Positions 4,712 through 63,724 of a DNA stretch of 64,000 nt are shown here, piece after piece. A model generated the notes under the pieces. It worked only from the letters and a program-made list of their open reading frames with translations. It did not search any database and had not been told where the DNA came from. The stretch comes from Blastopirellula marina (GTDB lineage: Bacteria; Planctomycetota; Planctomycetia; Pirellulales; Thermoguttaceae): assembly GCA_020721965.1 (NCBI GenBank), contig DYLS01000006.1, positions 8,387 through 72,386 on the forward strand, written 5' to 3'. Position numbers and translations under genes: made by a program. Every line of letters starts with the position of its first letter. Within the stretch, counting starts at the first letter, position 1.

Positions 4712-4938
4712 TACGACAGGAGACCCCCTCTAATGGCGGGAAATACCCGGCCCATTTTGTGAGCGGTTATGCCCCACCGCTACAAGATTTTGCCCGGTGG
4801 CCCACTCTTATTTCACACGCCCATTGAGGCACAACATGTAGCATTGGCAGGGACTTCTGGAATCAACATATAGTGACGAGCAATGGCGGTTGGGCACCAC
4901 GAGATTTTGAGCCAAGCAAACAAACCTGCGCTGTAGTA
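4712..4938 (+). repeat. M1 element copy A, interrupted by M4
   Basis: The right half (4899-4938) ends in TGCGCTGTAGTA, the right terminal repeat of the M1 family, and contains the M1 core GAGCCAAGCAAACAA. The left half (about 4712-4792) is more diverged but aligns through GGTTATGCCCCACC and CAAGATTTTG. A 103-bp M4 element sits in the middle. The outer flanks TTAG and TGAG match at three of four bases. Confidence 0.65.
4796..4898 (-). mobile_element. M4 element nested in M1 copy A
   Basis: The element is 103 bp and starts with GGTGGCCCACTC; its right end GCAATGGCGGTTGGGCACC is a degenerate inverted repeat of that start. It aligns end to end, at the same length, with the reverse complement of 31732-31834. 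It is flanked by 11-bp direct repeats, ACAAGATTTTG at 4782-4792 and ACGAGATTTTG at 4899-4909, which are the interrupted M1 sequence duplicated with one mismatch. It has no coding capacity. Confidence 0.75.
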
Positions 4939-5793: not shown

Positions 5794-5905
5794 GACCACG
5801 GCGTAAAATCCGTCGGATTGCATGATGGGCCCGGCACACTTTGCGAGGTAGTACGTCGCATCAGCACCAGATGTTGAGCCAAGCGAACAACCCTGCGCTG
5901 TATGA
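5794..5905 (+). repeat. M1 element copy B
   Basis: This 112-bp copy contains ATTGCATGATG, the M1 core GATGTTGAGCCAAGCGAAC and the right end TGCGCTGTATGA. The left end GACCACGGCGTAAAA is a decayed match to TACTACAGCGCAAAG. The flanking duplication is no longer recognisable. Confidence 0.7.
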
Positions 5906-5996
5906 TTGGTGTGGCGTTTCCATATTTTAACCCCGGATATCGCAAGAAGTATCCGTGAAGGCACGAAAAACAAAAGAGCAAAGGATCGTGGGGGAA

Positions 5997-9043: not shown

Positions 9044-9301
9044 GGTAACCGTTCACGGCTGCGATATAACGGACAAGATTTGTAAAACAACGAGGGTTGT
9101 TCAGAGGTTCCAGACGTTCCTAGAGCGCGGAACGGAATGTCATTTCGACGAGCGCAACAGTGTCATTTCGACGAGCGCCAGCGAGGAGAAGTCTTAACCC
9201 TTGTCAAGAAGATTTCTCGCCTCAAAAGATCTCTCGCTTTGCTCGAAATGACAGGAGAACGATCCGTTGTGCGGTGACGAGAGCCCCCGTGAAACGACTA
9301 C
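9044..9301 (+). mobile_element. M3 element copy a, with perfect 7-bp duplication
   Basis: This 258-bp element runs from GGTAACCGTTCACGG to CCGTGAAACGACTAC, which are inverted repeats of each other. The flanks are identical: GCTATCC at 9037-9043 and at 9302-9308. Inside are several copies of the TCATTTCGACGAGCGC-type motif. It has no coding capacity and lies between the convergent purB and mcsB genes. Confidence 0.8.
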
Positions 9302-9327: not shown

Positions 9328-10401
9328 TTACCCGTTGAGACGTTTTCGTAAAAATCTCGCACGCTCGATATTGCGGTCGGCACTGTCCAGATCGGTTCCC
9401 ACCAGTTTCTGAACATGGGCGGGCTGGGTCAGCAAAAAGAGTTCGTTCAAGGTCGGCGTGTCGAGTCCGGAAATGAGGCCCAGGTGGACTCCCATCCGCA
9501 CGCTGGACAAGAGGTGCATGGTCTCTTCGGAAGATATCGTTTGCGCCGTCTTGAGAATACCAAAGGCACGGCTCACCCGATCGTGAAGGTTCTCTTGACT
9601 CTCGTTCATGAGGAACTCGCGTGCCTTCCGCTCGTACTCGATGATTCGCGGGATAACGTCACCAACCTTGGCGATCAACTCCGGCTCGCTTCGCCCCAGC
9701 GAGACCTGATTGCTGACCTGGTAAAAGTCCCCCATCGCTTGGGAACCTTCGCCGAACAACCCCCGAACCACCAGCTCCAATTTTTCCAGCCCGCGGAATA
9801 TTTGATCCATCTGCCGGGTGATGACCACGGCGGGGAGGTGCAACATGACACTCACCCGCATGCCGGTCCCCACATTGGTGGGGCAAGCCGTGAGATAACC
9901 GAATTTTTCGTCGAATGCGAAGGTGAGGTGGCGTTCCAGGTGGTCATCCAAGTCGTTGATCAACTTCCAAGCAGGCTCGAGGTCCAGGCCGCTCCGCATG
10001 ACCTGCATCCGGAGGTGATCCTCTTCGTTGACCATAATGCTGTAACGCTCTTGATGGTCGATGAAGACCAACCGCAACCCCTGCCCCTCCGCGAATTCCC
10101 GGCTGATGAGTTGCCGTTCGACCAGAAAGTGCCGATCCAGCTCCGAAAGCTCGTCTACACGCAAAGGCATCAGATGCGGCGCGAAGGGGCTGTCCTTGAG
10201 AGCGGCCTCAACCCGTTCCGCAATCTGGCGCCGCTCGGTCTCACCGGCCAACCGAACGAATGGGAAGTCGGCCAGGTTTCGGGCAAGGCGGATTCGAGAA
10301 GACATGACGATGTCGGATTCCGGCCCCTCACCACGCAGCCATTCGCCGCGTCTTCCCATCAAGTCCTCGAGTTTCACGACGCGATCACCTTCCTGCAACA
10401 T
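9328..10401 (-). CDS. mcsB: Protein arginine kinase McsB
   Basis: McsB transfers phosphate from ATP to arginine side chains of proteins, marking them for ClpCP degradation in Firmicutes. The 357-residue protein is a guanido-phosphotransferase catalytic domain: SSRIRLARNL at 34-43 (ATP site), NEEDH at 125-129 (catalytic glutamates), and ACPTNVGTG with Cys173. It lacks the N-terminal substrate domain of creatine kinase, as McsB does. The C-terminal RNIERARFLRK resembles the phosphoarginine-binding region of McsB. It follows mcsA on the same strand, but an M2 element separates the two. No ctsR repressor gene is nearby. Confidence 0.92.
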   Translation of the reverse strand: MLQEGDRVVKLEDLMGRRGEWLRGEGPESDIVMSSRIRLARNLADFPFVRLAGETERRQIAERVEAALKDSPFAPHLMPLRVDELSELDRHFLVERQLISREFAEGQGLRLVFIDHQERYSIMVNEEDHLRMQVMRSGLDLEPAWKLINDLDDHLERHLTFAFDEKFGYLTACPTNVGTGMRVSVMLHLPAVVITRQMDQIFRGLEKLELVVRGLFGEGSQAMGDFYQVSNQVSLGRSEPELIAKVGDVIPRIIEYERKAREFLMNESQENLHDRVSRAFGILKTAQTISSEETMHLLSSVRMGVHLGLISGLDTPTLNELFLLTQPAHVQKLVGTDLDSADRNIERARFLRKRLNG

Positions 10402-10437
10402 GGGTATTACGAAGCGATGATGCAGTATTACTACTAA

Positions 10438-10602
10438 CTGGACTTTCGCAACTTAGGTTCACATGCTCCCTCCTACCCTCGGGAAATGGGAGGGTGAAGG
10501 CAGTTTACCGCGAAAACAGCTTTCGCTGTTTACCTGAATTGCCCAATCGCCAGGCGTATCGTCCTCTTTCAGAGGGGGATTGAGCACTTTGCAAAAGTCC
10601 AG
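10438..10602. mobile_element. M2 element copy 1, between mcsA and mcsB
   Basis: This 165-bp element starts CTGGACTTTCGCAA and ends TTGCAAAAGTCCAG, an almost perfect 14-bp inverted repeat. It is flanked by 6-bp direct repeats TACTAA at 10432-10437 and 10603-10608. Internal hairpins such as ACAGCTTTCGCTGT are present. It fills most of the mcsA-mcsB spacer and may affect readthrough or message stability. Confidence 0.8.
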
Positions 10603-10642
10603 TACTAACTGTTTCTGTGCTTTTCACGAACTCAAACTTGAC

Positions 10643-11161
10643 TTACGCAGATTCCTCGATCTCCTGGATTTGATCGCGAAGCTGGGAGGCACGCTCGTAT
10701 TCCTCGCGTTCCACGGCTTCCTTGATTTCTCGTCGTAGGCGAATCAACTCCGTGCGACGAGTGGCGGCCTCAGCCCCCTTGCTCGGCTGCTTGCCCTTAT
10801 GCTGGGTCTCGCCATGGATATTCAAAATCAAGGATTCCAATTGTTCGCGAAATACTTGGTAATCGTAGGGACAGCCAAGCCTCCCTTGATGCCGAAAATC
10901 ATGGAAACTGATTCCACAATAGGGACAGGTCTGCTCATCGAGTCGCTTCAGTTCCTCCGCGGCCTTGCCCACCACCAAATGCTTGACCAGGTGCTCCGCT
11001 ACCTGTTCGGTCACTTGAGTCATTTGATCGGTGGGAAGCTTTTGACCGCTGGAGAGATATTCTCTCGCGTGCTCCTCGCAGAAATGCAGCTCCACCGGCG
11101 TTCCGCTGGCCACCTCCGTGATATGGTAGGTGGCTGGGCGATCACACTTTTGGCACTTCAT
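10643..11161 (-). CDS. mcsA: McsA-type zinc-finger activator with UVR motif
   Basis: McsA is the zinc-binding activator and adaptor of McsB. The 172-residue protein has a CxxC pair at the very N-terminus (MKCQKC) with a later CEEH. A second zinc site is CPYC near residue 81 with a following C in GRLGCPYDY. The C-terminal UvrB/UvrC motif, LRREIKEAVEREEYERASQL, is the usual partner-binding helix pair. The ATG has an AGGAGG ribosome-binding site 4 nt upstream. A 40-bp stretch of this gene (10961-11000) recurs almost exactly at 57701-57740. Confidence 0.9.
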   Translation of the reverse strand: MKCQKCDRPATYHITEVASGTPVELHFCEEHAREYLSSGQKLPTDQMTQVTEQVAEHLVKHLVVGKAAEELKRLDEQTCPYCGISFHDFRHQGRLGCPYDYQVFREQLESLILNIHGETQHKGKQPSKGAEAATRRTELIRLRREIKEAVEREEYERASQLRDQIQEIEESA

Positions 11162-22904: not shown

Positions 22905-23216
22905 GTTGGCCTCGTTCCCATTCATAAGCACCACAAAAGCATAAAACGCTCTGGAACAAACCGCTCCCGGCACAGCTACGCTCGCCGCACCCAGGTAGTA
23001 CGCCGCCCCTATATGGATATGGCGTGGGCGATGGCGCGAATAGCATGAGATGTTTGATTTTACCGCATGCTCTGCTCCCTTATAAGGCTCCCAGCCGAGC
23101 GTGCCGTGCGAAGTGAGGCAGAGAATTATCGACCTTTTCCTGCTCCCCTGACTATTCCCCCAATCCCGTCTCCCGTCTCCTAATCCCGTCTCCCAATCCC
23201 GGCCTATTCATCTTAA

Positions 23217-23321
23217 TCCTACAGCGCCACGTCCGTGTGCCTGCATGATGCGCCCACCATACGTCGCAATGCGTTGTTTCCTATCACGACAAAATGTTGA
23301 GAACAACCCAGCGCTATAGCA
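23217..23321 (+). mobile_element. M1 element copy C, with TTAA duplication
   Basis: This 105-bp copy runs from TCCTACAGCGC to GCGCTATAGCA (inverted repeats, two mismatches) and is flanked on both sides by TTAA (23213-23216 and 23322-23325). It is closest to copy F at 42280. The rest of the 22974-23558 spacer shows only a short CCCGTCTCC-type repetition at 23159-23203 and no gene. Confidence 0.8.
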
Positions 23322-23558
23322 TTAAGCCGCGTGGACACCGGCAGCGGTCCTTTCCCTCTTCCCCTTGGATGCGTTTCCGGGCATTGGGATCGAATCCGCG
23401 TCTCCAGCGCTGTGTGCCGCAAGCCCTGACCCTTTCTCGTGGATCGTACCGCCGGAGGCGATGCCTTGTGCGGCAGCGCCACCCTTCTCTCCTTTCCACT
23501 TCCGCCAGCCAAGGTCCGACGGGGTCCGCAACCCCGGGCCAGATGCCGCTCGCTTTGG

Positions 23559-25025
23559 TCATTTCCCGATGCAGAATCGCGAAAAGACGCGATCCAATAT
23601 ATCCTCCGTATAAACGGCTCCGACAATTTCTCCCAAACTCTCTAATGCGGCTCGCAGGGATGCCGAGAGATATTCGTCCGCGAGAGAGTCTGTCGCGAGT
23701 GCGAGTGCCTCATCCAGTGCGGAGAGGGCGAGGTCCAAGCATCGCCGGGTGGCGGAGGCGACAGAAAGAATCATCGGTCGGGACGAGGCATGTTGGGACA
23801 GAAACGAGACAATTTGATTTCGTAGGAATTGGATTCCTTCGCCCGTCGCCGCGCTTGTCAAAACGTCGGGCTGAATGCCTGGAGGAAAGGCCCATCCTTC
23901 GGTCAGGTCACACTTCGTGGCCACCAGCAAACAACGACTTCGAACACCGGTCACGAATGCCCGCTCCGCCTGGCTGACTACCGAACGGCAATCCGTACAA
24001 AATAGCAGCAGGTCGGCGGACTGGGCGGCATTCTCGGAGAAACGCCTTGCCGCAATATCGGGAGGAAGGGGATTGGCCTCGGACGAGCCATCATCGGGCG
24101 ATCCATCGCGTTTGAAGGCGGCTGGAAGCGGCCGCGGCTCTGCTGACATGGAGAAATCCTCAACCCCGGCGGTGTCGATCAGCAGGATCGGAGTCCCCTG
24201 CCATTCCGTCTCAGCAGCCAGGCAATCGCGTGTCGTGCCCGGCAAGTCCGCCACGATGGCCCTCTCGCCCTCGAGCAGGGCGTTGAAGAGGCTGCTTTTG
24301 CCGACGTTCGGGCGACCCAGGAGTACAACTCGATGGCCTTCCCGAGCGTCGCTGCGCGCGTGGAGACCGCCAAGCAGGTTTTGGAGCTGGTCCCGGGCAT
24401 GGCGCAGTCGCTGTTCCACGTCGGAGCGAGAAATGAAGGTCAGATCCTCATCGGCGAAATCCAGTCCGGCCTCTAGCTCCACGAGCAGATCCAGCAACTC
24501 TTCGCGAAGCCGACGGATCGGGGATGCGATTCCCCCGGCCAGTTGCCGCAGCGCTGCCGCAAGTTCGCCGTCGTTGCCAGCCGCGACCACGGCCGCGACG
24601 GCCTCGGCCTGACTCAGATCGATTCGCCCCGCGAGAAATGCCCGCAGTGTAAATTCGCCAGGTCGGGCCTGACGAACCATCATTTCAGCAAGGCAAGCCT
24701 GGAGCAGCACGGGGGAACCGATAGTGTGAATCTCAGCGCAGACCTGCCCGGTATAACTCCGCTGCCCCGGCCAATACAAGATCGTCGCTGGCCAGGGTTG
24801 TCGGATGTTCTTCACCTTCAACAAGGCCGGTCGCACGAACGGCTCGGAGAGCGGCGGGGCCTCGCTATCGATAGGGAACTCCGCCACGCGGATTACCGCT
24901 TGCCAAGCGTCCGGCCCGGTGACTCGAAGAATCCCTCGCGCCCCACATCCCAATGGCGAGGCCACGGCGGCGATGGTGTCGTCCCAGCCCGTGTCCATAA
25001 GCTCGCTCGTGCTCAGGAACTTCAC
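23559..25025 (-). CDS. mnmE: tRNA uridine-5-carboxymethylaminomethyl modification GTPase
   Basis: MnmE with MnmG modifies U34 of several tRNAs. The 488-residue protein has the N-terminal THF-binding domain (DTIAAVASP, GRIDLSQAEAV) and the inserted G domain with G1 GRPNVGKSS (237-245), LPGTTRD, DTAG (284-287) and TKCDL. The C-terminal FCIGK carries the catalytic Cys. About 35 residues, rich in Pro, Ser, Asp and Glu, lie between DTAG and the switch II helix (about 289-324), longer than usual. The GTG start overlaps the yidC stop by four bases, so the pair is translationally coupled; a second ATG at 24998 is possible. Confidence 0.93.
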   Translation of the reverse strand: MKFLSTSELMDTGWDDTIAAVASPLGCGARGILRVTGPDAWQAVIRVAEFPIDSEAPPLSEPFVRPALLKVKNIRQPWPATILYWPGQRSYTGQVCAEIHTIGSPVLLQACLAEMMVRQARPGEFTLRAFLAGRIDLSQAEAVAAVVAAGNDGELAAALRQLAGGIASPIRRLREELLDLLVELEAGLDFADEDLTFISRSDVEQRLRHARDQLQNLLGGLHARSDAREGHRVVLLGRPNVGKSSLFNALLEGERAIVADLPGTTRDCLAAETEWQGTPILLIDTAGVEDFSMSAEPRPLPAAFKRDGSPDDGSSEANPLPPDIAARRFSENAAQSADLLLFCTDCRSVVSQAERAFVTGVRSRCLLVATKCDLTEGWAFPPGIQPDVLTSAATGEGIQFLRNQIVSFLSQHASSRPMILSVASATRRCLDLALSALDEALALATDSLADEYLSASLRAALESLGEIVGAVYTEDILDRVFSRFCIGK

Positions 25026-27640
25026 ATGCGGCGGCGCAGCTTTTCGGGTCTGCGTTTCGGCGTGCCCTTTCGGTCCACTCGCTCCGCTGGTTTAGGGGAT
25101 TTGTCGCCGTCCACCGTTTGCCGCAGACGGCGATCCCATTCTTCGATCCACTTCAAGATCGCTGCCTTCCAACGCCTCGGAGGGTTCCGCTTGGCTTCTG
25201 TAGGCTCCGCTGGTTTCATCTGCAACAGCACGTGCCGCTCGCCCAATCCCCACACGCTGGAGATGATGAAATACAGACACAAGCCACTGGGCACTTTATA
25301 GAATAGAATGCCCATAAACACCATCATGAACGTCATCACTTTCTGTTGCATCGCCGCATTTTCGTCAGCGGGGGGTGGCATCATTTTCTTCTGCTGCCAA
25401 AGGAAAATAATGATCGTAAGAACGGGTAAGAGATTAACATACGGGCCGAGCGCGAACATCCCTTGGCCGCGGTTGAACCATTCAGGCCAGAAATAACTCC
25501 AGTTGAATAGCATGTCGGGTGCCGCCAAATTGGAACACCAGCGAAGGCTTTCCGTAATCAGCGGGGCCTGTCGCAGCTCGACGTCGATCGCCAACGCCTT
25601 GTATAAACCTATGAAAATCGGAAGCTGAATAAAAAGCACAAGACAACCGGAAAACGGGCTGTAGTTGTGACGCCGAAACAGTTCTTGAATCCGCTCGTTC
25701 CGCTCTTGCAAGTCTTTATATTGCTCTTGAATGCGTTTTATTTCGGGCTGCAATTCCTGCATTTTCTGGGCGCTGAGCGTCTGCTTGCGACTAATCGGGA
25801 ACATGCATAGCCGCACAATTGCAGTAAGCATTAAAATAGCCAAACCATAGTTGAAGACTGCATAATCGTGAAACAGGTGAAGCAATCTGGTCATCGGCTC
25901 GGCTACAAACCAAAACCAACCGTATTGGATCAGCCCGTGCAAATCGTACGCGTTCAACAGGTCTTGCCGTTTCGGGCCAAGAAAAATCCTATACTCGTGG
26001 CTGAGAGATTCACGAGGGGCTAGGGTCGCGGGGCGCGAGGTGAGGCGGCAGGATACATTTGTCAAAAACTCATAATTGCGCTCGGGCGTGCCGATGCGGT
26101 AGGGTCGCACGTCGTCGAACCACAGCGATTGGGGATTTTCCTTTTTGGGAATGAGTATGGCCGAAAAGTATTGAGCGTCCACTCCTACTGCCGTGACGTT
26201 CTCGGATTGGTCGTTCCAAGGAACACCGGCCTTGTCCCGCGCGATGGAGTAGCACGATACCAGGCGAAGGCCGCCACTCCCCAGCTTTACGGCAACGTCG
26301 CGAAGCCCAACCGCGGACCAACTGTTGCTCATCTTGCGGGCATACCAGGCGCCCTCTGTCGGCAGCCCATTGGGACCGTCCAACTGGTACGCGACTGCGA
26401 CGGCTCGATCACCGACGTTGAAGCACTCCACGGTAAGTGTCAAATGGTAGTTGGTTTCATCCAGGTTGGATAACTGCGTGGGATCGCCCTTGGCAAGCCG
26501 GTAGGTCTTGGTAAGAACGATGTTCTTGTCGGGCAGCCAGACGCCAAAGCGGATACTGTCCCGAATTCGCTCCGGATGGTCGGTGAGGTCTTGTTCAGGC
26601 CACGCTTGGGGACGCCGTGGATCCACATGCTCCGGTAAGACTCTCCAGACGCGGGTCCGCAGCGATACACCCGGCAATTCCAGTTCCAACTGACGGCGTA
26701 CCAGCTCCTCGCGTTCGACAGGGCTTTGTGTCTTGGCGGTACGCTCTTCCATAGCAAGGCGTCGATCCAAGAGGCGATCCTTATCGAATTGCGCCAGCGT
26801 CGTCAGAAAGGATAATGGTGCCCTCTCTTCCGGTCGGATCAGTTCGAGCGGCATCCTGCGGAGCGTGGCACTAAGTTTCAGCGCGCGGTCTCCCCGCAGT
26901 ACATCGAGGGTGACCGTTTGCCCCGGTCGTGTTCGAGCAAGGATGGCTTTCAGCGAACGGAGGTCCACGACCTTTTGTCCGTCGATCGCGCGGAGAAGAT
27001 CACCGGGGCGCAGCCCTGCCTCAGCGGCAGGTGTACCCGGCCCCACAATATCGACGGGTAAGCCGTCTCCAATCAGGCCCGAATCCCCCACGATGTCGCC
27101 CAGGTACCCCCCCCAATATTCCGTATCGCAATACCGTGGGTTATTCAATTCGACGCGGACGACCGCCGCTCCCTCATTGGAAAGCGTGACCAGCATCCGG
27201 TAGGGCTGGTTCGAATCCAACGTTCCCAGCGTGAAATACGCTGGTGGTGGGTCTGGTGGGGCAGCCACTTGCCGCGGAGGTCTGCCGGGTTGATCCTGAT
27301 GTGCCTCCGGTTGGATCTCGCCCTGGCCCGGTTTTGCGTCGGAGGCAGCCGTGGCCGAGGCCCCCCCCCCATCCGTCGGGACATGCCTTGGGCCGTTCGA
27401 GTGTCGCTCTTTCGATTCACGCTGGGTGCCGCCGTTCTCGCCCTCTTTCCCAGCGTCGTCCGCAGTAGCCTTGCCCGGAACCTTGGCCGGATTGCCCACG
27501 GCCTGCGTGAGATCCTCCTGGCCTTTCTTGGCGAAGCGGGACATGAAATAGAAATTGGCAACAATAATTACCATTGCGAGGGCGAGAAATAGGAAATATC
27601 GCCCAAGTTCTGGTTGATTGCCGTTGGTAGGCTCTAGCAT
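25022..27640 (-). CDS. yidC: Membrane insertase YidC with an embedded PDZ domain
   Basis: YidC inserts and folds inner-membrane proteins. The 872-residue protein has an N-terminal membrane anchor (about 14-33), a low-complexity linker (about 40-130) and a large periplasmic region. The Oxa1 core (about 570-800) includes the conserved Arg in TAIVRLCMFPISRKQ and the LPIFIGLYKAL segment, and a Lys/Arg-rich tail follows. E. coli YidC has about 550 residues. Much of the extra length is a PDZ-like domain at about 193-262 (VDIVGPGTPAAEAGLRPGDL, then VLRGDRALKLSATLRR), between the halves of the periplasmic region. It overlaps mnmE downstream. The rpmH-rnpA genes often found upstream are absent. Confidence 0.92.
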   Translation of the reverse strand: MLEPTNGNQPELGRYFLFLALAMVIIVANFYFMSRFAKKGQEDLTQAVGNPAKVPGKATADDAGKEGENGGTQRESKERHSNGPRHVPTDGGGASATAASDAKPGQGEIQPEAHQDQPGRPPRQVAAPPDPPPAYFTLGTLDSNQPYRMLVTLSNEGAAVVRVELNNPRYCDTEYWGGYLGDIVGDSGLIGDGLPVDIVGPGTPAAEAGLRPGDLLRAIDGQKVVDLRSLKAILARTRPGQTVTLDVLRGDRALKLSATLRRMPLELIRPEERAPLSFLTTLAQFDKDRLLDRRLAMEERTAKTQSPVEREELVRRQLELELPGVSLRTRVWRVLPEHVDPRRPQAWPEQDLTDHPERIRDSIRFGVWLPDKNIVLTKTYRLAKGDPTQLSNLDETNYHLTLTVECFNVGDRAVAVAYQLDGPNGLPTEGAWYARKMSNSWSAVGLRDVAVKLGSGGLRLVSCYSIARDKAGVPWNDQSENVTAVGVDAQYFSAILIPKKENPQSLWFDDVRPYRIGTPERNYEFLTNVSCRLTSRPATLAPRESLSHEYRIFLGPKRQDLLNAYDLHGLIQYGWFWFVAEPMTRLLHLFHDYAVFNYGLAILMLTAIVRLCMFPISRKQTLSAQKMQELQPEIKRIQEQYKDLQERNERIQELFRRHNYSPFSGCLVLFIQLPIFIGLYKALAIDVELRQAPLITESLRWCSNLAAPDMLFNWSYFWPEWFNRGQGMFALGPYVNLLPVLTIIIFLWQQKKMMPPPADENAAMQQKVMTFMMVFMGILFYKVPSGLCLYFIISSVWGLGERHVLLQMKPAEPTEAKRNPPRRWKAAILKWIEEWDRRLRQTVDGDKSPKPAERVDRKGTPKRRPEKLRRRM

Positions 27641-31524: not shown

Positions 31525-31636
31525 TACTGTGGCGCAAAGGCGTCCGGATTGCATGACGTGTGCGGCACAGATTGCGAGGCGTTATGTCCCATCACGACAA
31601 GATCTTGAGCCAAGCAAGCAATCCTGCGATGGAGTC
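31525..31636 (+). repeat. M1 element copy D
   Basis: This 112-bp copy has left end TACTGTGGCGCAAAG and right end TGCGATGGAGTC. It keeps the M1 core GATTGCGAGGCGTTATGTCC and TTGAGCCAAGCAAGC. The flanks no longer match. It is the first of four elements between argF and the SDR gene. Confidence 0.7.
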
Positions 31637-31640
31637 CTAA

Positions 31641-31921
31641 TTGGACTTTTGCAATTTAGGTTGGCAAGCTCCATCCTTCCCGCGAGAGATGGTAGGGAGA
31701 AGGCAGTTTTTCATAGGAGCTGTTTTCCTGTGGTGCCCTACCGCCATTGCACACCGCTTTATGTTGCCCCCAGAATTCACCGTCAATGCTATATGTCGCG
31801 CCTTAATGGGCGTGTGCAATGGGAGTAGGCCACCGGCTGTTTTCCTCGTTTTCCTGAATTGCCCAGCGATCCAGTCTGTCGTCCTCTCTCAGAGGGGAGC
31901 GAGCAGTCTGCAAAAGTCCAG
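31641..31921. mobile_element. M2 element copy 2, interrupted by M4
   Basis: It starts TTGGACTTTTGCAA and ends CTGCAAAAGTCCAG, an inverted repeat with small mismatches. The outer parts align with M2 copies 1 and 3. The total length of 281 bp is explained by a nested M4 at 31732-31834 plus its duplicated flank. Confidence 0.75.
31732..31834 (+). mobile_element. M4 element nested in M2 copy 2
   Basis: This 103-bp element has inverted ends: GGTGCCCTACCGCCATTGC on the left, and on the right the complement of GGTGGCCTACTCCCATTGC. It lies between two copies of GCTGTTTTCCT (31719-31729 and 31836-31846). Removing the element and one copy restores an M2 sequence that aligns with the other M2 copies. 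It aligns end to end with 4796-4898 in reverse orientation. Confidence 0.8.
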
Positions 31922-31922
31922 C

Positions 31923-32157
31923 TATCACGGAAAAGATTTCTGAAACAACGGGTGTTGTTCATGGGTTCCAACCGTTTCTTGGGTGTGGAAAGGAATGTCA
32001 TTGCGACGAGCACCAGCGATGTCATTTCGACGAGCGCCAGCGAGGAGAAATCTTAACGCTTGTCGGGAAGATTTTTCGCTCCGCTCGAAATGACAGGAGG
32101 GCAACGACAAGAGTACGAGACGTTTTGCAGTGACGAGCCCCCCCTGTGAACGACCAC
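31923..32157 (+). repeat. M3 element copy b, left end decayed
   Basis: It aligns with M3 copy a from the AAGATTT region through GTCATTTCGACGAGCGCC to the right end CTGTGAACGAC. The first ~20 bp of the left terminus are missing where it abuts M2 copy 2. Confidence 0.7.
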
Positions 32158-32166
32158 TAAATCTGG

Positions 32167-33090
32167 ATGCGGCACATGGCCACGCGGTTGATCATCGGAA
32201 CGGGCTATTTGGGGAGTCGCCTCGCCGAGGCTTGGCATTCCCGCGGCGACACGGTGTACACGGTGACCCGTTCCCCCGAGCGTGCTACGCTCTTGGCCGC
32301 CAAAGGATTCAAGCCGATTGTGGCGGATGTGACCCAGCCTGATACGCTACGGCAACTTCCGGTATCAAGTACAGCCGTGTTCTGCGTGGCCTACGATCGA
32401 CACGGCGAGGCTTCACCGCACCGCGTGTATGTAGAGGGACTGTGCAACGTCCTGGCATCCCCGGCTGGAGAGTCCGATTGTATCGTTCAGATCAGCAGTA
32501 CCGGGGTTTACGGAGATCACGCTGGGGGATGGATCGACGAATCCAGCCCGACCCGTCCGGTTCGGCCATCCGCCAAGGCCCTGTTCGAGGCGGAAAACGC
32601 CCTGCGGAGTTCCAGACCGGGCCAGGGAAGTCTGGTTCTGCGACTTGCCGGGATTTACGGTCCCGGACGGATTCCCTTGCTCCGCAATCTCCAGCAGGCA
32701 ACCGGCCTGTCCGGCTTTGCCCAGGCTGTGATCAACTTGATTCACATCGAGGATGCTGTTTCCGCCGTGTTGCTGACCAGCAATCGGGCATCGCAACCTA
32801 ACATTTACAACGTTGCCGATGGCAATCCGGTAACCCGATTCGCCTTTTATGCCGAGTTGGCCCGGCTCCTGGACCTCCCCTATCCAAAGTTCGAGGGATC
32901 CTCGTCGGATGGCAACGGAGGATGCTCGGGCAGTGCGACTGGCGCCGCGGCATCGCGCGGAACCGGCCACAAGATGGTCTCGAACGCCAAGATTCGCCTG
33001 GAACTCGGTTTTGCTTGCCGATATCCGAGTTATAAAGAGGGTCTCAGGGCTATCTTTCAAGAACTGGACTTTTGCAACTTGGGTTCATAA
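32167..33090 (+). CDS. NAD-dependent epimerase/dehydratase-like SDR protein
   Basis: An extended short-chain dehydrogenase of 307 residues. The Rossmann start RLIIGTGYLGSRLAEAW binds NAD(P). The catalytic region has SSTGVYGDHAGGW, with Ser and Tyr, but the classical YxxxK is not obvious (SAKALFEAE follows). LRLAGIYGPGR is the usual substrate-side motif. It resembles atypical YeeZ-type SDRs; the substrate is unknown. The last nine or so residues (LDFCNLGS) are encoded by the left end of an M2 element, so the native C-terminus has been replaced. ATG 32176 is an alternative start. Confidence 0.8.
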   Translation: MRHMATRLIIGTGYLGSRLAEAWHSRGDTVYTVTRSPERATLLAAKGFKPIVADVTQPDTLRQLPVSSTAVFCVAYDRHGEASPHRVYVEGLCNVLASPAGESDCIVQISSTGVYGDHAGGWIDESSPTRPVRPSAKALFEAENALRSSRPGQGSLVLRLAGIYGPGRIPLLRNLQQATGLSGFAQAVINLIHIEDAVSAVLLTSNRASQPNIYNVADGNPVTRFAFYAELARLLDLPYPKFEGSSSDGNGGCSGSATGAAASRGTGHKMVSNAKIRLELGFACRYPSYKEGLRAIFQELDFCNLGS

Positions 33091-33227
33091 GCTCACTTCT
33101 CCCCTCCGGAGACGGCAGAGTGTAGGCGGTTTAATGCGAAAACGGCTTTCGCTGTTTGCCTGGATTTCCCAAGTATCCGATTTGTCACCCTCTTTCTGAT
33201 GGGGGCGAGGAGTTTGCAAAAGTCCAG
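33064..33227. mobile_element. M2 element copy 3, overlapping the SDR 3' end
   Basis: This 164-bp element runs from CTGGACTTTTGCAA to TTGCAAAAGTCCAG, a perfect 14-bp inverted repeat. Flanks TCAAGAA (33057-33063) and TCTAGAA (33228-33234) match at six of seven bases. The SDR reading frame enters the element and stops at 33090. Between here and 33432 I see a TATAAT at 33265-33270, a possible -10 box without a good -35. Confidence 0.8.
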
Positions 33228-33432
33228 TCTAGAAATCTCTTCCGCGAGACCCAAGGAAGATCGGCTATAATGAATGAAGGCTTGCCGTGCAAGGCTGGCG
33301 CGGAAGGGTTATGACAAGACTCGTAACGGGGCTTCGATCCGTCGAAAGACCGCGATTCCGGCTACCGTACAATTCGGTTAAGGCCCTTGTCGTTCAGATG
33401 AACTTGAACACGATACAGGCTTGAGGCTGTTC

Positions 33433-41622: not shown

Positions 41623-41734
41623 TACTCCAGCGCAATGTGCGCCTGATTGCATGATGTGCCCGCCATCGATTGCGGGGCGTTGGGGCGCATCATTATACGA
41701 TGTCGATCCCCGCAAACAACCCTGTGCTGTAGTA
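41623..41734 (+). repeat. M1 element copy E
   Basis: This 112-bp copy has left end TACTCCAGCGCAATG, core GATTGCATGATGTGCCC and right end TGTGCTGTAGTA. The rest of the 41505-41871 spacer shows nothing else. Confidence 0.7.
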
Positions 41735-41871
41735 CGTGTAGACAACCAGTGAAGAGCCGCACGGGTTTTGCCGGATTGCGATTCTTCCGCTGTCGCTGGA
41801 CGGCTTGTGCCAGGCACTGCCCTCGATTGCTGGTGCTGCAATGCACCCCCGCCCGCGCCTTTCGTGTGCAA

Positions 41872-42174: not shown

Positions 42175-42279
42175 TCCGACAACTCCTTGCGTCTAGGGTT
42201 GGAAGAAAAAAGTCGATGCCCGTAACCGCACGTATCGCTGCAATCCGGGTCATGGTCGGCACAGGCTCATCGCAAATAA

Positions 42280-42384
42280 TGCTACAACGCAAAGTCCGTG
42301 TGCCTGCATGATGCGCCCACCATACGCTGCAATACGTGGTTTCGCACCACCACAAGATGTTGAGAACAACCCAGCGCTGTAGCA
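42280..42384 (+). mobile_element. M1 element copy F, with ATAA duplication
   Basis: This 105-bp copy runs from TGCTACAACGC to GCGCTGTAGCA (11-bp inverted repeats, one mismatch), flanked by ATAA at 42276-42279 and 42385-42388. It is very similar to copy C. Confidence 0.85.
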
Positions 42385-42398
42385 ATAAGACTCGCTAG

Positions 42399-42512
42399 TA
42401 CCGCACCGTAAAGTCCGCCCAATTGTATGATGTACGCACGATTGATTGCGAGGCGTCATGTCCCGCCAGCACACAATATGTTGAGCCAAGGAAACGACGT
42501 TGCGCTGTAGTA
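42399..42512 (+). mobile_element. M1 element copy G, with CTAG duplication
   Basis: This 114-bp copy runs from TACCGCACCGTAAAG to TGCGCTGTAGTA, flanked on both sides by CTAG (42395-42398 and 42513-42516). It lies 14 bp after copy F in the same orientation. Confidence 0.85.
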
Positions 42513-42523
42513 CTAGAATCCCA

Positions 42524-42839: not shown

Positions 42840-43233
42840 GGTCTGACGTTACGCGCGACAACATTCCAATCGATCAGCAAAATATCTCCGACTTCCCCAC
42901 GCCCCCGTTTGTGGTCCCCAAAAGCTGGCCCTGCCCATCGATCATGTGCAGCTTACTTACCCGCTCGGGTCGTGTCTGCATACGCCAGCCGATAAACCAA
43001 ATTTCCTGGACGTATTTTTACGTAAATCATTACTGCGTAAAGACTTTCGGTTGATTTGTACTGCTTACCGTAGTCATGTAATGGTTTTTCGTAAGTTTTT
43101 GTCCTGTAATGAGTTGCGCGATTCGCCTTGTACTCAGAAAACAGTGAGAGAATCGGGGTGCTCAATTGACGTACATTATTTTCTCACAATCACTTGCAAT
43201 TAGCATCCCCCTAGTTCGCGGGGGGGGAAGTTT
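42840..43233. other. A+T-rich spacer
   Basis: The part from about 43000 to 43200 is clearly richer in A+T than its surroundings and repeats words such as TTTTTACGTAA, ACTGCGTAAAG and TTTTTCGTAAG. A 70-residue minus frame at 42953-43165 begins with TTG and lacks a ribosome-binding site, so I do not call it. No gene recognised. Confidence 0.4.
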
Positions 43234-43370
43234 GGTCGAAATGACAGCATCGCGAGTGGTTTTGCAGTGAGGAGAATCTCTGCAAAAGACTTCGCAAGAT
43301 TTCTCGCTTCGCTCGAAATGACAGCAGGACTAGCCGTTTTGCAGGGACGAGAAACCGCGTAAACGATTAC
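43234..43370 (+). repeat. M3 element copy c, right part only
   Basis: It aligns with the right half of the M3 family: GTCGAAATGACAGC, GTGGTTTTGCAGTGA, ACTTCGCAAGATTTCTCGC and the right end AAACGATTAC. The left half is missing. Confidence 0.65.
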
Positions 43371-43531
43371 GGGTGGAACAATGCGGAAAGGGTGGCGTTT
43401 TCACGAGCATTTGGCATACCCGCACTGCTCATAGCCGCCGATGGCTCAAGGGAACGGCAGGATGCTGCGGTCGACGCGGCGTGACGCCCCCATGTTCCGT
43501 GAACGGCCACCGACCGGCGGTGCGATGCCGA

Positions 43532-59178: not shown

Positions 59179-59425
59179 GTTAACCGCTTACGGGCAGGAG
59201 TCACTCACAGGGATTCTCCTCACTGCAAAGCGGCTCGTCCTCCTGTTATTTCGAGCGAAGCGAGAAATCTCGTGAAGCGAGACATCTTCTCGAAATGGGT
59301 TAAGATTTCTCCTCGCTAGCGATCGTCGAAATGACATTGCGTTCCACACTCAGGCAACCTCTGGAACCTCCAACCCTCGTTGTCTCACAAATTTTTTCCG
59401 TTACAGCTCAGCCGTGAACGGTTAC
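59179..59425 (-). mobile_element. M3 element copy d, with perfect 7-bp duplication
   Basis: This 247-bp element has ends GTTAACCGCTTACGG and CCGTGAACGGTTAC, flanked by GTAGAAC at 59172-59178 and 59426-59432. It contains TTTCGAGCGAAGCGAGAAA, the near-palindrome shared by M3 copies. It lies in reverse orientation relative to copy a. Confidence 0.8.
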
Positions 59426-63404: not shown

Positions 63405-63724
63405 GGTAATCGTTCACCGGGGTTCTCAGCACAGCGAAAAGCCTCGTCCTCTTGTCCTTTCGAGCGCAGCGAGATCTTGCGAAGTCTTTTGTAGCGATTT
63501 GCGTCACTGCAAAACCGCTCGCGCTGCTGTCATTTCGAGCGAAGCGACAAATCTTCTCAACTAGCTGAAGATTTCTTCTCGCTAACGCTCGTCGAACTGA
63601 CATTGTTGGTTGGCGCTCGTCGAAATGACATTCCGTGCTCCACTCAAGGAATCTCTGGAACCCCTGAACGACCCTCGTTCTCCCCCAAATCTTTTCCCTT
63701 ATAGCTCAGCCGTGAACGGTTACC
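63405..63724 (-). mobile_element. M3 element copy e
   Basis: This 320-bp element has ends GGTAATCGTTCACCGG and CCGTGAACGGTTACC, strongly inverted. It contains repeated CATTTCGAGCGAAGCGA motifs and is longer than the other copies. I found no matching direct repeats at its flanks. Confidence 0.75.

Follow-up and report, generated by a model that had tools for sequence, protein, structure and literature searches.

Background

Prokaryotic MITEs are described as elements of less than 500 bp that carry short terminal inverted repeats, fold into stem-loops, are mobilised in trans and lie between genes in tens to hundreds of copies, with direct repeats around the younger ones (PMC10969869). The MITEs of Haloquadratum walsbyi share only terminal bases with their transposon, and some of them have moved though the intact cognate transposase is gone from the genome (PMC3119063). 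IS701 elements measure 1400–1550 bp, and ISTth8, an IS701 element of Thermus, is listed with a 4-bp duplication (PMC6352166). No MITE tied to IS701 was found in the open-licence papers searched.

Here, a repeat termed M2 was analyzed in a window of 64,000 nucleotides (the whole stretch of DNA considered; contig DYLS01000006.1, positions 8,387 to 72,386) from a Blastopirellula marina assembly (GCA_020721965.1, hereafter G000), together with the rest of that genome and with other planctomycete genomes. M2 is a new MITE family of a known kind of element. Comparison of sequences indicates that it is very probably a gene-less MITE whose 14-bp CTGGACTTTTGCAA ends are recognised by an IS701-type DDE transposase acting in trans. 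It has the size, terminal repeats, probable trans-mobilisation, stem-loop folding, intergenic placement, copy number and direct repeats given above for prokaryotic MITEs; unlike them, it is not AT-rich in G000, has IS701-type ends and reaches ~150 copies without a detectable resident partner. In this state M2 is like the orphan MITEs of H. walsbyi (PMC3119063), from which it differs in that the host there is archaeal and the MITE families are unrelated. As described in PMC10969869, the Chunjie elements are, like M2, a MITE (~235 bp) with many intergenic full and decayed copies of variable length, while length, host and copy number differ. With M2, the Planctomycetota gain a high-copy MITE family for which the type of partner transposase has been identified.

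Structure of the copies in the window

Three copies had been placed by the earlier note at 10438, 31641 and 33064, and all three are present in the window, with the following features.

10432..10437, no strand: left target-site duplication of copy 1, TACTAA (6-bp register set on 68 copies)
10438..10602, + strand: M2 copy 1, a 165-bp MITE
10438..10451, + strand: left terminal inverted repeat of copy 1, CTGGACTTTCGCAA, 1 mismatch
10589..10602, − strand: right terminal inverted repeat of copy 1, perfect
10603..10608, no strand: right target-site duplication of copy 1, TACTAA
31641..31921, + strand: M2 copy 2, 281 bp, ends with 1 mismatch, no target duplication, a second element inside
31719–31729 and 31836–31846: 11-bp repeat GCTGTTTTCCT on either side of the nested element in copy 2
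31730..31835, + strand: other repeat element nested in copy 2, ends GTGGTGCCC...GGCCACCG, ~106 bp
33057..33063, no strand: left flank of copy 3, TCAAGAA, in a 7-bp register and differing from the right flank at one base
33064..33227, + strand: M2 copy 3, a 164-bp MITE with perfect 14-bp inverted ends
33064..33077, + strand: left terminal inverted repeat of copy 3
33064..33090, + strand: overlap of copy 3 with the upstream epimerase-like ORF 32167–33090, to which it gives the final 8 codons (LDFCNLGS) and the stop
33214..33227, − strand: right terminal inverted repeat of copy 3
33228..33234, no strand: right flank of copy 3, TCTAGAA

The perfect 14-bp ends that had been claimed for the element hold for copy 3, in which they are exact complements, and not for the left end of copy 1 or either end of copy 2, which have one mismatch each. 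The flanks reported for copies 1 and 3 were recovered, as a perfect TACTAA duplication and as a 7-bp pair with one mismatch respectively. Copy 2 is longer because ~106 bp of another repeat is nested inside it. Copies 1 and 3 have no frame of their own, in line with the statement that the interior has no coding frame, yet copy 3 supplies the end of the epimerase-like ORF. The spacer that holds copy 1 lies between two minus-strand genes, namely 9328–10401, an ATP:guanido-phosphotransferase-domain gene of the McsB type (PF00217), and the ORF 10643–11161.

Copy number and age of the copies

The host genome is a 4.95-Mb assembly in 380 contigs. At up to one mismatch, CTGGACTTTTGCAA occurs there 151 times in forward and 147 times in reverse orientation (reversed control, 0/0), so the genome-wide count that the earlier note had called for comes to ~150 M2 copies. 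In the window alone the end motif is modestly above chance (9 against 5.2 expected at ≤3 mismatches), and all 40 matches listed in a BLAST search of G000 with copy 3 had E = 6.7e-20 or better. Nearly all sampled copies, 68 from G000 and 25 from its congener G003 (the MAG 'Thermogutta sp. AS27yjCOA_190'), are 160–168 bp long and gene-free, and the 14-bp ends CTGGACTTTTGCAA/TTGCAAAAGTCCAG are paired in almost every one. At one G000 locus (L028:1501-1678, contig C110), part of a second right end (13 bp, TGCAAAAGTCCAG) stands between the M2 copy and the matching duplication TCAGTA, which looks as if one end had been duplicated upon insertion.

Median identity between the sampled copies is 70% in G000, 93% in G003 (n = 25) and 62% for pairs between the two genomes, and the nearest relative of every sampled copy is a copy in its own genome. 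In the tree, the G000 copies fall into an old group of 58 and a young one that is made up of 10 near-identical copies of 167 bp and adjoins the burst of G003. Judged from these sequences, amplification is genome-specific and was active after the divergence of G000 and G003. With old and young subfamilies and no resident transposase detected, M2 is a clean case for the study of MITE bloom and enzyme loss, and near-identical 167-bp copies may break short-read assemblies of such genomes.

A conserved position beside the same genes in relatives, which the earlier note had named as evidence against its reading, was not seen for copy 1, because G003 has at this place a spacer of ~52 bp instead of 235 bp, without the element; the flanks are too diverged there to reveal an unoccupied 6-mer. 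At the loci of copies 2 and 3, the DNA match to G003 and G002 stops with the OTC gene and empty sites are not visible.

Target duplications and insertion sites

The distribution of duplication lengths, another check that had been proposed, has a single peak at 6 bp and a minor 7-bp class. Exact 6-bp duplications flank 23/68 copies in G000, and 38/68 are flanked by duplications with no more than one mismatch, where shuffled flanks would give 0.5 and 2.4; in G003, 14/25 are exact against a null of 0.9. Lengths of 2–5 and 8–10 bp are near the null in the 68 G000 copies, in which 7-bp duplications show a small excess (2 exact and 7 with at most one mismatch, where 0.1 and 0.3 are expected), and no exact 4-bp case was found among the M2 copies sampled. 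Many flanks differ at one or two bases. Duplications are thus found in most copies; their absence from copies other than those first seen had been named by the earlier note as evidence against its reading. The preferred target has a consensus of roughly T-T-A-T-A-A. After the element and its duplication had been removed from each site, 14% of insertion sites fell in open stretches of ≥300 aa, compared with 70% of random positions: M2 insertions avoid genes.

An IS701-type partner in relatives

An autonomous partner with the same ends, for which the earlier note had suggested a search, was found in relatives as an IS701-type insertion sequence with CTGGACTTTTGCAA ends, and not in the host genome. 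In the genomes G050, G018, G004 and G007, single CTGGACTTTTGCAA ends are followed at once by the beginning of a transposase gene, and the fragments of partner genes match PF13546 (DDE_5; two N-terminal fragments) and NF033540 (IS701). The only complete insertion sequence found with exactly the M2 ends lies in G527 (L257:2016-3447); it is 1432 bp long and has both ends and a 449-aa frame, whose transposase scores 181.2 bits against NF033540 (cut-off 150). In its length, within 1400–1550 bp, and its one ORF for a DDE transposase of the NF033540 family it is like IS701 insertion sequences, while the 4-bp direct repeat of IS701 was not seen, the MITE copies having 6 bp. The flanks of the G527 element, TTATAT/TTATTA, have just 4/6 bases in common. 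Other versions of the partner, whose ends are CTAAACTTTTGCAA, CTGAACTTTTGCAA or CTGAAGTTTTGCAA, are present in G780, G708, G015, G060 and G061, and in the last two such elements stand alongside MITEs. Apart from the ends, no derivation of the MITE interior from the insertion sequence is visible. Taken together, ends, copy number, duplications and a partner in relatives support the non-autonomous transposable element that the earlier note had implied.

The closest annotated elements considered were ISHala4 and ISHti12 (plasmid records NZ_CP019286.1 and NC_021913.1), whose transposases are 30–31% identical to that of the partner, with the D, D and E residues invariant. Their perfect ends, CTCAGCTTTGCACGTT and CTCAGCTTTGAACGTT, which share the form CTCAGCTTTG(C/A)ACGTT, and their 7-bp duplications, TAACCAA and TTACAAA, resemble those of M2, so ends and target preference agree across the group, unlike the 4 bp of ISTth8; M2 and its relatives have 6 bp, sometimes 7, and M2 itself is without a transposase gene. 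As these two elements show 7 bp, a 4-bp duplication is not uniform among annotated IS701 elements, and the partner is therefore called IS701-type and not a classical IS701. The length of duplication quoted for IS701 thus seems not to apply to this branch, and the 6 bp found against the 4 bp reported is the mildly surprising point.

No relatives of the G527 transposase were found at E ≤ 1e-30 in a phylum-wide scan of 393 genomes, hence close relatives are rare. Plasmids gave only distant IS701-like transposases (<60% identity), and neither the M2 element nor a close transposase was found in viral contigs and plasmids. An IS701-type transposase was not found in G000, G003 or the Pirellulales MAG Zod_Metabat.975 (G008) with two protein queries, nor in G000 and G003 with the family NF033540 or profile A3, and G008 gave only a 22.7-bit fragment against NF033540. 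M2 therefore looks orphaned in G000, and the partner is identified through the ends it has in common with M2, not through presence in the same genome. The gene may lie in a missing contig, since some copies of such genes hit contig ends in G060, G061 and G527.

Among other candidates, the end pair at positions 42...2163 of contig C346 in G003, which had the appearance of an autonomous element of 2.1 kb, consists of two separate MITEs of 166 bp each, and in the loci examined there were no paired ends 300–5000 bp apart with matching duplications. Three loci of G063 (L198, L207 and L212) hold DDE_Tnp_1 insertion sequences whose ends, GTGGACTTTTGGAGAAAA, bear a superficial resemblance to those of M2.

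Alternative explanations and proposed mechanism

Movement of the MITE by a transposase of another family with similar ends, for example of the IS4, IS5 or IS1634 type, all of which have the DDE_Tnp_1 domain, appears improbable. It would accommodate the failure to find an IS701-type gene in the host genome, and IS1634 duplications of 5–6 bp (PMC6352166) are closer to 6 than those of classical IS701. However, DDE_Tnp_1 (PF01609) genes, which were present in 5/7 genomes at 20 loci, in no case had M2 ends at their boundaries, and those of G000 are broken, whereas in at least 5 genomes IS701-type genes are immediately preceded by this 14-bp end. The 7-bp duplications of the IS701-like ISHala4 and ISHti12, which also have CTCAGCTTTGCA-like ends, further make 6–7 bp natural for this IS701 branch.

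The hairpins that had been described in the interior exist as predicted folds, and the fold of a single copy is better than that of shuffled sequence (z = −4.6); this, together with insertions mostly outside long open frames, would suit an element that is kept for the benefit of the host and functions as RNA or DNA (as an attenuator, a terminator or a REP/ERIC-type regulatory repeat), with the inverted ends as its stem. A good fold of single copies is nevertheless expected for a sequence with long inverted ends, and covariation does not support the hairpins: an alignment of 27 oriented copies gives a covariation term of −0.04 kcal/mol and two-sided changes in only 2/25 pairs, and the pairs that prove robust are those of the terminal repeats. 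As copy 1 also has no Rfam match, we infer that the interior is without conserved RNA function. Insertion is shown by the target duplications, the interiors of different genomes are unrelated, and two congeners, G001 and G002, have no exact M2 end, all of which makes a function for the host very unlikely. Less credible still, to the point of being negligible, is the spread of an inert repeat by recombination or gene conversion instead of transposition. The few copies without visible duplication, such as copy 2 in the window, and the L028 copy with its duplicated 13-bp end would fit it, but a sharp 6-bp duplication around the element, within one mismatch in more than half of the copies, is a signature of transposition. 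Two repeat classes were also discarded: REP/RAYT or ERIC-type repeats (palindromes without target duplication), in view of the clear 6-bp duplications and the lack of an Rfam match, and IS200/IS605-type PATEs (subterminal palindromes without inverted ends or duplication), in view of the perfect inverted ends and the 6-bp duplication.

If M2 is moved in trans by an IS701-type DDE transposase, this enzyme would pair both ends and free the element, which would then be joined across a 6-bp (sometimes 7-bp) stagger in a cut-and-insert reaction, and host repair would fill the stagger to give the target duplication. The transposase gene would later have been lost from G000, or would lie in an assembly gap, so that the M2 copies would now be decaying.

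Same ends with other interiors in planctomycetes

Ends of the CTGGACTTTTGCAA type with 6-bp-like duplications also bound unrelated interiors in other planctomycetes: a 203-bp element along with 122-, 47- and 22-bp forms in G008, elements of 73 and 166 bp in Zod_Metabat.393, a 261-bp AT-rich element in the Planctomycetaceae MAG Ct408_bin98 and a 122-bp element in a Phycisphaerae MAG. The exact 14-mer was present in 9 genomes of the host's family, G000 included (relatives draw), and in 10/392 genomes of a phylum-wide draw, most of the latter with single and probably chance hits; database contig matches outside the Planctomycetota were likewise mostly single and probably due to chance. One could speculate, though with considerable doubt, that the 14-bp end pair is an independent unit across planctomycetes, in which a wandering IS701-type transposase with 6-bp duplications would have repeatedly mobilised unrelated interiors (165-bp GC-rich, 203-bp, 261-bp AT-rich, 122, 73 and 47 bp, down to a palindrome of just 22 bp) and would later have disappeared from its hosts, leaving large orphan families.

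The bare 22-bp palindromes of G008, CTGGACTTTTGCAAAAGTCCAG, lie at L172:4945-4966, L167:8448-8469 and L115:1943-1964, one of them with a change in the first base; their flanking 6-mers match at 5/6 positions in two cases and at 4/6 in the third. They look like M2-type elements collapsed between palindromic TTTTGCAAAA repeats, which occur at both ends of the 203-bp element of the same genome.

Other repeats and genes in the window

A second MITE-like repeat, 80% like the element nested in copy 2 (31730–31835), is found at 4794–4900 on the opposite strand, flanked by the 8-bp repeat CAAAATCT. A group of larger repeats, apparently a further family present in both orientations, contains GTCATTTCGACGAGCGCCAGCGAGGAGAAATCT-type sequence and the conserved flank GTAACCGTTCACGGCTG... 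and occupies 9065–9292, 31923–32137, 43231–43371, 59209–59425 and 63418–63723. A diverged intergenic family, TTGCATGATG...GAGCCAAGCAAACAACCCTGCGCTGTAGTA, occurs at 5800–5911, 23214–23331, 31531–31642, 41629–41740 and 42277–42518, and one of its members directly precedes M2 copy 2. Finally, the minus-strand gene at 25022–27640 encodes a protein of the YidC type (60KD_IMP, YidC_periplas) whose PDZ domain, at residues 193–259, is N-terminal of the periplasmic domain.
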